A stretch of 52,166 nt of DNA from Desulfobacteraceae bacterium (GTDB lineage: Bacteria > Desulfobacterota > DSM-4660 > Desulfatiglandales > Desulfatiglandaceae): the NCBI GenBank assembly GCA_030613055.1, contig JAUWMR010000026.1, forward strand, positions 1 to 52,166. The letters are read 5' to 3'. A program made the translations under genes and the position numbers. Under the pieces are notes generated by a model. It did not search any database and was not told the DNA's origin. It worked only from the letters and a program-made list of their open reading frames with translations. Shown here piece after piece: positions 7,037-14,438 of this stretch. Within the stretch, counting starts at the first letter, position 1; every line of letters begins with the position of its first letter.

Positions 7037-7462
7037 AATACCTGCCTTCAGATATAGTCAAATAGTTGAGTGGTTAAGTGGTTGAGTTGGAGAATTATTG
7101 TTATAATTTCAGTAAGTTACAAATATCAAAATGATAAATATCTCCCACCATGACGGGACTAAAAACAAATACACCCGTGAATTTAACTACTTAACTACTC
7201 AACTATTCAACCACTTAACGAGGTCTGAGGTTCAAGAAAATGGGGCCTTGCTCATTATTAGCGGGAATTTAGCAGGATTAGAGATCGAGGTCAAGCCGCT
7301 CGCTGTCACTGAACAGCAGGCTGTTGCAATCCCGGGACAATAGCATTCGTTATTGAGCAAGACATTCGCATCAATCTCATTCTCATTGCAAATAAACAAG
7401 GATTATTGTAAAAGCAGATTTCTTAGATTTCATATATCTGAATCATATTGGAGCATAAACGA
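7037..7462. other. Divergent intergenic region upstream of the cysteine fusion gene
   Basis: It holds partly complementary repeats: AGTTGAGTGGTTAAGTGGTTG at about 7063-7083 faces AACTACTCAACTATTCAACC at about 7193-7212. At 7370-7389 the plus strand reads ATCAATCTCATTCTCATTGC, an array of ATTCTCATT-like hexamers faintly resembling a Fur box. GGAG at 7450-7453 is the ribosome site of the next gene. No clear -10/-35 and no T-box or SAM-riboswitch pattern was seen. Confidence 0.3.
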
Positions 7463-9781
7463 ATGATTGACAAGCCACGCAGTATTTTAGACCAGATTGG
7501 GGGGACCCCCCTTGTTTCCATAAACAAGCTCAATCCCAATAAAAATGTGGAGATCCTGGCCAAGCTCGAATTCTTTAACCCTGGTGGCTCAATAAAGGAC
7601 AGGCCAGCACTTTTCATGATTGAGGAAGCCGAAAAAAGCGGGGACCTGACAGGAGACAGGATCATCCTTGAAGCCACAAGCGGAAACACAGGGATCGGGT
7701 TGTCATTAGTTGCTGCCATAAAGGGATATCGAATCCTTCTTGTCATGTCGGAGGCAGTCAGCGATGAGAGGAAAAAGATACTCCGTGCCATGGGAGCGGA
7801 GTTGAGATTCACACCCGCACACCTTGGAACCGATGGGGCAATTGAATTTGTCTATAATATGATAAGGGAAGAGCCTGACAAATACTGGTTAGCCGATCAG
7901 TTCAATAATGAGGCAAACTGGATGGCCCACTACCACGGTACCGCAACCGAGATATGGGAACAGACAGGCGGGAGCTTAGACGTGATTGTGTCAACCATGG
8001 GCACTACCGGCACCTTGATGGGCCTTTCAAGGCGGTTTAAGGAACTTAAACCCCAGGTCGAAATTGTCGGTGTCGAACCATACTTGGGCCACAAAATCCA
8101 AGGTCTTAAGAACATGAAGGAATCCTATCGTCCGGGAATATATGAAAAGAGCAGGGCCGATCGGATCATCAATATAGATGATGAAGAGGCATATCTTACA
8201 TCCAGGTTGCTTGCCAGAAAAGAAGGCATTTTTGCCGGCATGAGCTCGGGAGCAGCCATGGCAGTAGCCATAAGACTTGCAGGGGAGATGAGAGAAGGCC
8301 GTATTGTGGTAATCCTGCCAGACGGAGGTGACAGATATCTGAGTACGCCCCTCTTTACCGACAAAAAGAAAACCGGCCTGCTCCTGTACAATACGCTCAC
8401 GCGAAAAAAAGAAGAATTTATACCCATTAAGGAAAATCATGTTTCAATGTATTCCTGCGGTCCTACCCTATGCCAGTTGATCCATATCGATCAATGCAGG
8501 CGTTTTGTATTTTCCGACCTTATCAGACGATATCTGGAGTCTAAAGGCTATGCAGTAACCCAAGTTATTAATGTCACGGACCTGGATGACCGAACCATTG
8601 AGGGAGCTAACACTGCGGGTATTTCCCTTAAAGATTTTACGGAAAAATATTATCAGGAGTTCTTAAAAGACCTTGATACCCTGAATATAAAAAGGGCCAC
8701 GGAATATCCTAAGGCAAGTGAATATGTAGATTACATGATTCAACTCATTCAAAAACTACTCGAAAAGGGATACGCATATGAAAAACTCAGGTCAGTTTAT
8801 TTCGATATATCTCGATTTAAGGACTACGGCAAGCTTTCCAGGATAGACTTTGAAAAAATCAGGATCGGTAAGACAGTGGATCTTGAGCAATATGAAAAAG
8901 AAAACCCGCGGGATTTTACGCTCCTTAAAAGATCGACCCTGAATGAACTGAAACAGGGCATATTTTATCAGACGCAGTGGGGAAATGTCAGGCCGAGCTG
9001 GCATATGGAATGCCCTGCCATGGCTATGAAACTTTTAGGGGAAACCTACGACTTACACACAGGCGGGGTTGATCTGATCTTTCCACACCATGAAAATACA
9101 ATTGCCATAAGCCAGGCAGTCACAGGAAAACCTCCCGCAAATTACTGGCTCCACAACGAGCTCGTTATGATCAATGGAAAAAAGCCGTTACGGGGCTCAG
9201 ATGATAATATCAATACTATCAGACTGATATTGGACAGGGGTTTCACGGGCAGGGAAATCCGTTACTGGCTCATCAGCAGTCATTACAAAAAACCCATCTC
9301 CTTTTCATTTGCAAAACTGGAAATGGCCAAAAAAACTATCTCAAATCTCGATAAATTTATTAAAAGACTTTACCACTGCCATTCAGGCCCAGCTAATCCT
9401 GAGATAGACCAGCTGGCATATAATGTCCGCCATACTTCAGTGGAAGCGTTAGACAATGATTTTAATATCGCTCCCGCCTTAGCGGCCCTTTTTCAGTTTA
9501 CGCGCAGGATAAACACCGTCATGAACCAAAACGGCCTTGCCCCTACTGATAAGGAAAAAGTGCTAAATACTCTCCATCTTATCAACTCTGTATTAGCCGT
9601 TATGGACCTTGAACCGCCAAGACCCGATAAGGAAGTGGAAGCACTGATCAAACAGAGAGAGGCGGCCAGGAAAAACAGGGACTGGGAGAAGGCCGACCGG
9701 TTACGTGAGGAATTAAAGAAGATAGGAATCGAAGTAATTGATACAAAAAAAGGATCAATGTGGAACAGTACCGGTGATTAG
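7463..9781 (+). CDS. Fusion: PLP cysteine synthase domain + cysteinyl-tRNA synthetase-like domain
   Basis: 772 residues from the ATG at 7463 (GGAG nine bases upstream; an in-frame TTG at 7448 overlaps that site). Residues 1-300 are an O-acetylserine sulfhydrylase/cystathionine-synthase-type PLP enzyme. PLP lysine K45 lies in NPGGSIKDRPA, the TSGNTG substrate loop and the GTTGT phosphate loop are present. Residues about 310-772 align along the whole CysRS fold, including the C-terminal anticodon-type helix (EVEALIKQREAARKNRDWEK). Key CysRS residues are altered. HIGH is HIDQ (341-344), KMSKS is replaced by KPLRG (574-578), and the zinc glutamate of HHENE is threonine (HHENT, T546); zinc ligands C332, C517 and H542 remain. 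The PLP half looks active. The synthetase half may be a non-canonical cysteine-activating or sensing module. A second, canonical cysS is expected elsewhere. Confidence 0.88.
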   Translation: MIDKPRSILDQIGGTPLVSINKLNPNKNVEILAKLEFFNPGGSIKDRPALFMIEEAEKSGDLTGDRIILEATSGNTGIGLSLVAAIKGYRILLVMSEAVSDERKKILRAMGAELRFTPAHLGTDGAIEFVYNMIREEPDKYWLADQFNNEANWMAHYHGTATEIWEQTGGSLDVIVSTMGTTGTLMGLSRRFKELKPQVEIVGVEPYLGHKIQGLKNMKESYRPGIYEKSRADRIINIDDEEAYLTSRLLARKEGIFAGMSSGAAMAVAIRLAGEMREGRIVVILPDGGDRYLSTPLFTDKKKTGLLLYNTLTRKKEEFIPIKENHVSMYSCGPTLCQLIHIDQCRRFVFSDLIRRYLESKGYAVTQVINVTDLDDRTIEGANTAGISLKDFTEKYYQEFLKDLDTLNIKRATEYPKASEYVDYMIQLIQKLLEKGYAYEKLRSVYFDISRFKDYGKLSRIDFEKIRIGKTVDLEQYEKENPRDFTLLKRSTLNELKQGIFYQTQWGNVRPSWHMECPAMAMKLLGETYDLHTGGVDLIFPHHENTIAISQAVTGKPPANYWLHNELVMINGKKPLRGSDDNINTIRLILDRGFTGREIRYWLISSHYKKPISFSFAKLEMAKKTISNLDKFIKRLYHCHSGPANPEIDQLAYNVRHTSVEALDNDFNIAPALAALFQFTRRINTVMNQNGLAPTDKEKVLNTLHLINSVLAVMDLEPPRPDKEVEALIKQREAARKNRDWEKADRLREELKKIGIEVIDTKKGSMWNSTGD

Positions 9782-13822: not shown

Positions 13823-13915
13823 TGGCGGAGAGAGAGGGATTCGAACCCTCGTAGGAGGTTTCCCCCCTAACTCGCTTAGCAGGCGAGCGCCTTCAGCCAG
13901 CTCGGCCATCTCTCC
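13823..13915 (-). tRNA. tRNA-Ser (anticodon GCT)
   Basis: A class II tRNA on the minus strand with acceptor GGAGAGA/TCTCTCC, discriminator G and encoded CCA. The anticodon arm CTCGC-CTGCTAA-GCGAG gives GCT, followed by a long variable arm (TTAGGGGGGAAACCTCCTA) and the T-arm GAGGGTTCGAATCCCTC. It reads AGC/AGU serine codons. Confidence 0.97.
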
Positions 13916-14350: not shown

Positions 14351-14438
14351 TGGCGGAGGGAGTAGGATTCGAACCCACGGTCCCTCTCGGGACAACGGTT
14401 TTCAAGACCGCCGCCTTCAACCACTCGGCCATCCCTCC
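14351..14438 (-). tRNA. tRNA-Ser (anticodon TGA)
   Basis: A class II tRNA on the minus strand: acceptor GGAGGGA/TCCCTCC, discriminator G and encoded CCA. The anticodon arm GCGGT-CTTGAAA-ACCG gives TGA. A long variable arm (TTGTCCCGAGAGGGAC) and T-arm GTGGGTTCGAATCCTAC follow. It reads UCA and probably other UCN codons. Confidence 0.97.

Follow-up and report, generated by a model that had tools for sequence, protein, structure and literature searches.

A single gene in the window, the 52,166-nucleotide stretch of Desulfobacteraceae DNA analysed here, joins a cysteine synthase with intact active-site residues to a full-length domain resembling CysRS, the cysteine--tRNA ligase, from which both ATP signatures have been lost. 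The reading tentatively favoured here, at a little under an even chance, is that of an active cysteine synthase carrying a dead CysRS as a built-in regulatory domain that would dock on tRNA-Cys. The gene occupies a single open frame (7448-9781, plus strand) in which GGAG stands ahead of an ATG at 7463, which makes this ATG the likely start, as an earlier note on this DNA had it. The features are as follows:

7450..7453, plus strand: likely ribosome-binding site GGAG, read directly, 5' of the ATG
7463..9781, plus strand: CysM-CysRS-like fusion gene, 772 aa and stop (open reading frame, start, domain searches)
7484..8356, plus strand: PLP-dependent cysteine synthase domain, residues about 8-298, closest to CysM (TIGR01138/TIGR01136, structure)
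7595..7597, plus strand: K45, PLP Schiff-base lysine, invariant in 84 aligned fusions
7676..7693, plus strand: TSGNTG substrate loop, residues 72-77, S73-G77 invariant in the same 84
8000..8014, plus strand: GTTGT phosphate-binding loop, residues 180-184, G180, T181, G183 and T184 invariant in the same 84
8378..9766, plus strand: CysRS-like domain, residues 306-768 (TIGR00435, AlphaFold2 model, 1u0b match)
8483..8494, plus strand: eroded HIGH motif, HIDQ, residues 341-344 (alignment)
9011..9013, plus strand: C517 (E. coli C209), zinc ligand kept (alignment)
9098..9100, plus strand: T546, replacing zinc ligand E238 (alignment)
9182..9196, plus strand: KPLRG at the place of KMSKS, residues 574-578 (alignment; loop length varies across the family)
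9626..9763, plus strand: CysS_C, C-terminal anticodon-binding domain (Pfam, conservation, published contacts)

Pfam searches detected a PALP domain (243.9 bits), the CysRS catalytic domain (303.4 bits), DALR_2 and CysS_C, and the TIGR00435 cysS profile matched at 416 bits against a cut-off of 340. Open frame and domain scores agree with the proposal that one frame joins a cysteine synthase to a full-length CysRS-like domain. Full-length fusions in dozens of related genomes rule out chance or an assembly artefact as the origin of this arrangement, and open frames together with strong conservation rule out a pseudogene.

The synthase half passes the TIGR01136 cysteine synthase cut-off (355 versus 344 bits) and stays below that of the stricter cysM profile (366 versus 394 bits). 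Its nearest solved structure is E. coli CysM (2v03; fold match Z 44.1), with which it shares 45% identity in structural alignment and all PLP and substrate-loop residues. The active site had been described as intact-looking from K45, TSGNTG and GTTGT, and the invariance of the key residues bears this out, so that this half is predicted to be a working cysteine synthase. Two differences set the fusion apart from CysM and CysK: the fusion alone bears a CysRS-like C-terminal half of 470 residues, and CysE is often absent from the genomes that encode it. No clear CysE was found in 44 of 80 fusion genomes, and the best match in the host reaches only 50 bits. Given this gap, O-phosphoserine may be the sulfur acceptor, which is a guess; published work on acceptor choice by CysM yielded no sequence rule applicable to the fusion. 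Apart from the fusion, no cysteine synthase was found in the host genome (95.6% complete); judged from their sequences, the other PALP genes found there encode a threonine synthase, a D-cysteine desulfhydrase/ACC deaminase-like protein and a TrpB-like protein.

In the CysRS-like half, alignment confirmed each of the changes first noticed in the sequence, namely HIGH to HIDQ, KMSKS to KPLRG and the zinc glutamate to threonine. C332 and H542 are present along with C517, so that three of the four zinc ligands (C28, C209, H234 and E238 in E. coli) are kept. Across the family, H37 of HIGH is retained in 42 of 86 fusions and H/N40 in 12 of 86, none of the fusions examined has KMSKS, and the entropy of the KMSKS loop (2.52 bits, versus 1.17 in ordinary CysRS) indicates that its constraint has been released. 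R168, W184, W194, G201 and Q241, near-invariant in ordinary CysRS, are altered in almost all fusions. The cysteine pocket of the window's order is held near-invariably (C28 in 36 of 37 members; C209, H234, W205, T68 and D69 in 37 of 37), with zinc Glu238 lost in the order. An E. coli CysRS with KMSK changed to alanine is reported to have still supported translation (PMC5660078), so that the loss of KMSKS alone is not decisive. Since both ATP signatures are lost, however, the CysRS half very probably does not adenylate cysteine. The earlier note had seen in this pattern a changed reaction rather than decay. A changed function is supported by the selective loss of ATP-handling residues and by phylum-wide selection on the remainder; a changed reaction is not, and it is more likely that this half has no reaction at all.

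The host has a second, canonical cysS elsewhere in its genome (L002, with HVGH, KMSKS and HHENE), so the fusion is not its sole CysRS. Separate CysRS proteins are encoded in 50 of 53 close fusion-bearing genomes (the exceptions, G016, G038 and G054, are 80, 91 and 68% complete) and a further CysRS-like protein in 79 of 80 fusion genomes spread over the families of the phylum; motifs of the separate copies were read in L002, L185, L186 and L187 only. In genome G183 the only other CysRS found in the draft (L186) is a form of 419 aa with HLGH, KMSKS and a PHHECS zinc region and no anticodon domain. This near-universal company argues that the fusion is not kept for charging. Further CysRS paralogues were noticed in passing. 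A third CysRS of 720-740 aa with HIGN or HLGN and KMAKS (L188, 342-2513, minus strand, in G113; L189 in G077) is fused at its C-terminus to what, by eye, looks like a family 2 glycosyltransferase. Two CysRS-like proteins of about 415 aa (L190, 935-2185, minus strand; L191, 1050-2297, plus strand) mirror the fusion: they have kept HVGN and KMSKS but carry replacements at the zinc site (NIQDPA, RHHDYN) and lack the anticodon domain. They could represent CysRS* or might ligate an amino acid other than cysteine.

Searched across genomes, the architecture proved to be phylum-wide and not a single mutated gene. Of 394 sampled genomes of the phylum (Thermodesulfobacteriota, by named relatives), a collection that is a sample and includes drafts, 168 carry a fusion; query coverage, listed for about 150 of the 168, is nearly always full length. 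Carriers among the matches listed include Desulfocapsa, Desulforapulum autotrophicum, Desulfoluna butyratoxydans and Desulfobacula. Of 61 close genomes, counting that of the host, 46 carry the fusion at full length and another 7 carry parts of it. The nearest stand-alone CysRS from other phyla carry canonical motifs, and the fusion was not found in eight hosts of these proteins (Acidobacteria, Spirochaetes and others), most of which encode the two proteins separately.

In a tree, read as unrooted, that combines 86 CysRS domains from fusions with 36 from stand-alone proteins, the fused domains lie on one side of a branch with support of 100, which fits one fusion event behind them all; the canonical CysRS of the host is not close to them. 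Near-canonical fusions sit on several early branches (L129 and L137 with HLGN, KMSRS and all four zinc ligands, CCHE; L151 with HLGL and KMSRS), in hosts that also have a canonical-type cysS. The earlier note had reckoned that homologues with canonical motifs would make this copy merely mutated: some early fusions do come near them, but KMSKS itself is missing from every one examined. At the other extreme, one clade of about 11-14 members has lost C28, C209 and T68 (TGPPLD, WHIAS, PHLEN; L160, L164-L169). The fewest changes on the tree are 13 for H37, 10 for the KMSKS core, 7 for Glu238, 3 for C28 and 2 for C209, a safer measure than counts over the 95-member set, which is unweighted for relatedness and overstates independence. 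By this reconstruction, HIGH and KMSKS were lost repeatedly within the fused clade.

The anticodon-type C-terminus behaves differently from the ATP motifs. It had been described, with most of the fold, as well conserved, which the presence of CysS_C and its contacts upholds. Residues R732, R736, W741, D745, R748 and D760 of the fusion correspond to R423, R427, W432, D436, R439 and D451 of E. coli CysRS, of which R427, D436 and W432 contact G34 and R423 does so via water, according to PMC12684709 (citing Hauenstein 2004). Among the 94 fusions that reach the C-terminus, R423, D436, R439 and D451 are present in all, R427 is arginine in 92 and lysine in 2, and position 432 is always aromatic. All contacts persist even in the 14 most degenerate fusions, including the clade without the zinc-cysteine pocket. 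The four published contacts have an entropy of 0.23 bits versus 2.02 for the rest of the domain, a value that four random positions reach with P 0.0014. In ordinary CysRS the same contacts vary nearly as little (0.45 bits), and the whole domain drifts slightly more in fusions than there (1.85 versus 1.61), so that the retention may in part be inertia or structural need. In ordinary CysRS these contacts are constrained because of tRNA binding.

Structure prediction with AlphaFold2 gave a mean pLDDT of 90.5 for the window's fusion and 89.1 for the degenerate, zinc-less L160. Their CysRS halves match tRNA-bound E. coli CysRS (1u0b) with Z 49.1 and rmsd 3.6 over 447 residues and Z 46.6 and rmsd 3.1 over 441 residues, respectively, and the C-terminal domain is included in both matches. 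A predicted fold shared with the tRNA-bound enzyme does not by itself imply tRNA binding. With a pTM of about 0.63, the models leave the relative placement of the synthase and CysRS halves unfixed.

A complete synthase and a complete anticodon-reading surface are common to all members, and this combination favours a pseudo-synthetase that docks on tRNA-Cys. Judged from the conserved residues, the fusion probably binds tRNA-Cys, and such binding possibly, at less than an even chance, regulates the attached synthase. The C-terminal domain would grip the GCA anticodon, placing the 3' end of the tRNA over what used to be the active site. Where the zinc-cysteine pocket survives, as in the window's lineage, it could still bind cysteine or a cysteinyl end, and the domain might distinguish charged tRNA from uncharged, or respond to free cysteine, with no need for ATP. 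Binding would in turn alter the activity, stability or placement of the synthase and match the cysteine supply to the demand of translation. The most specific version, in which the pseudo-CysRS reads the charging state of tRNA-Cys and sets synthase activity throughout the phylum as a GCN2-like sensor inside the enzyme, is rather unlikely. Of the functions first suggested for the protein, a tRNA-linked cysteine synthase is thus favoured by the wider data as regulation or docking and not as charging.

The sole cysteine synthase found in a host is the enzyme that one would want regulated, which counts for the regulatory reading. Gene context counts against it: no cysteine or sulfur gene is shared as an operon partner across 39 fusion neighbourhoods, and no tRNA-Cys gene adjoins the fusion. 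The neighbours that recur in these 39 are lineage-specific, a thymidylate kinase-like gene upstream and a protein of 315-374 aa downstream. The latter, conserved and uncharacterised, is encoded directly after the fusion gene, or overlapping it, at nine loci in other families (L040, L042, L046, L145, L147, L150, L176, L178, L038) and was not seen beside the window's fusion. Rfam matches to an RNA leader were sub-threshold only. Upstream of the fusion, positions 7061-7219 of the window hold a small element made up of inverted arms, 28 nt long and 86% complementary, and a perfect 13-nt pair, the 13-mer of which occurs nowhere else in the window; a few kb downstream lie two tRNA-Ser genes (GCT and TGA; 13823-13915 and 14351-14438, minus strand).

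The main rival, although unlikely, is a sensor resembling HisZ, in which the CysRS half binds free cysteine at the zinc site and exerts feedback on the synthase with no role for tRNA. It owes this rank to the cysteine pocket that the window's order preserves while the ATP residues disappear, and it has a precedent in HisZ, a HisRS paralogue without adenylation that mediates feedback inhibition (PMC9437257). Pocket retention in most fusions fits a plain cysteine sensor equally well. Zinc Glu238 is gone from the window's order, however, and the clade that has lost C28, C209 and T68 keeps the domain and every anticodon contact; furthermore, the anticodon domain is missing from MshC, an enzyme that works without tRNA, but is retained in the fusions. 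The cysteine sensor suggested earlier therefore suits the window's lineage and misfits the clade without the pocket. Both ideas could hold together, should the pocket recognise the cysteinyl end of a charged tRNA.

Quite unlikely is a scaffold or channel, in which the domain would attach to tRNA-Cys, the real CysRS or the ribosome and pass freshly made cysteine on to the charging enzyme, so that little of it stays free; allostery would play no part. The near-constant co-occurrence of the fusion with a separate CysRS would suit such a role. So would the CP insertion (E. coli 116-190), which is more conserved in fusions (entropy 1.15) than in ordinary CysRS (1.62) and carries, in or around it, the family-specific residues T471, R490, L493, L496, K497 and G499 (elsewhere R347 and K610), as expected of a new interface. 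These residues possibly form one, but a contact to the synthase domain explains the patch equally well. Still less probable is a structural relic that merely stabilises or oligomerises the synthase, its conservation reflecting folding: many retained residues may belong to the core of the CysRS fold, which is modelled with high confidence in the degenerate clade too, but a pure scaffold need not retain the side chains of R427 and aromatic 432 in every member.

Residual CysRS chemistry, be it slow charging, persulfide formation or ligation of cysteine to another acceptor, is highly improbable. The near-canonical early fusions and the translation supported by the KMSK-to-alanine enzyme speak for it, but the hosts of these fusions have a canonical-type cysS anyway, and the window's protein, like most others of its order, has lost HIGH too. 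Persulfide synthesis by E. coli CysRS has been mapped to the lysine motifs 73-KIIK-76 and 266-KMSK-269 (PMC5660078). The window's fusion reads RTIE and KPLRG at these sites; lacking both sets of PLP-binding lysines, it does not fit a persulfide synthase of the CysRS type, and this option of the earlier note is disfavoured. The same holds for its ligation to a non-tRNA acceptor, since ligation of the MshC kind requires ATP activation of cysteine. Least probable of all is tRNA-dependent synthesis, in which the PLP domain works on a serine derivative on tRNA-Cys presented by the CysRS-like domain: tRNA-reading residues do stand beside a cysteine synthase, and without a clear CysE acetylserine is not the obvious donor, but the active site is of the free-amino-acid type (CysM) and O-phosphoserine, used by M. 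tuberculosis CysM according to the title of 3dki, is a simpler donor.

The fusion resembles CysRS (TIGR00435) in its full-length fold with anticodon domain and in C28, C209, H234 and the anticodon contacts, and differs in being joined to a synthase in a host with another CysRS; of the features of a cysteine--tRNA ligase (EC 6.1.1.16), the window's protein lacks HIGH, KMSKS and, with Glu238, an intact zinc site, and retains the anticodon contacts. MshC is likewise a CysRS paralogue (fold match Z 43.5), but it has 411-414 aa, uses ATP and has no anticodon domain; with 176 bits against a cut-off of 485, its motifs lost and an anticodon domain present, the fusion is not MshC. CysRS* of Desulfobacterales, which has no anticodon domain and charges SelC* (PMC9437257), is an extra CysRS paralogue from the same broad lineage. 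The fusion is its reverse, with the anticodon part kept and the ATP part lost, and the presence of CysS_C rejects this identity. A review of duplicated synthetases lists only MshC and CysRS* for CysRS (PMC9437257), and the fusion is neither.

In outline the fusion would work like HisZ, a synthetase that has lost adenylation and is coupled to an enzyme making its own amino acid (HisG, which it controls). HisZ is of class II, whereas the fusion is of class I and covalent, keeps its anticodon domain and may regulate its synthase. The dead HisRS-like domain of GCN2 senses uncharged tRNA. GCN2 thus also has a dead synthetase domain fused to an enzyme and thought to bind tRNA, but there the enzyme is a eukaryotic kinase and the domain belongs to class II, whereas the enzyme in the fusion makes the amino acid itself. 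No paper describing a CysM-CysRS fusion was found in the open-licence literature. Repurposed adenylation-dead synthetases are already known, as HisZ illustrates.

A standard pipeline would name the window's protein a cysteine--tRNA ligase on its TIGR00435 score and hide a fusion that is present in more than 40% of the sampled genomes of a major sulfur-cycling phylum. Its members, from near-canonical to fully degenerate, offer a graded series in which the transition can be followed experimentally. If tRNA-Cys is bound, the fusion would tie the supply of cysteine directly to the needs of translation within one polypeptide and would allow a direct test of how dead tRNA synthetases turn into metabolic regulators.
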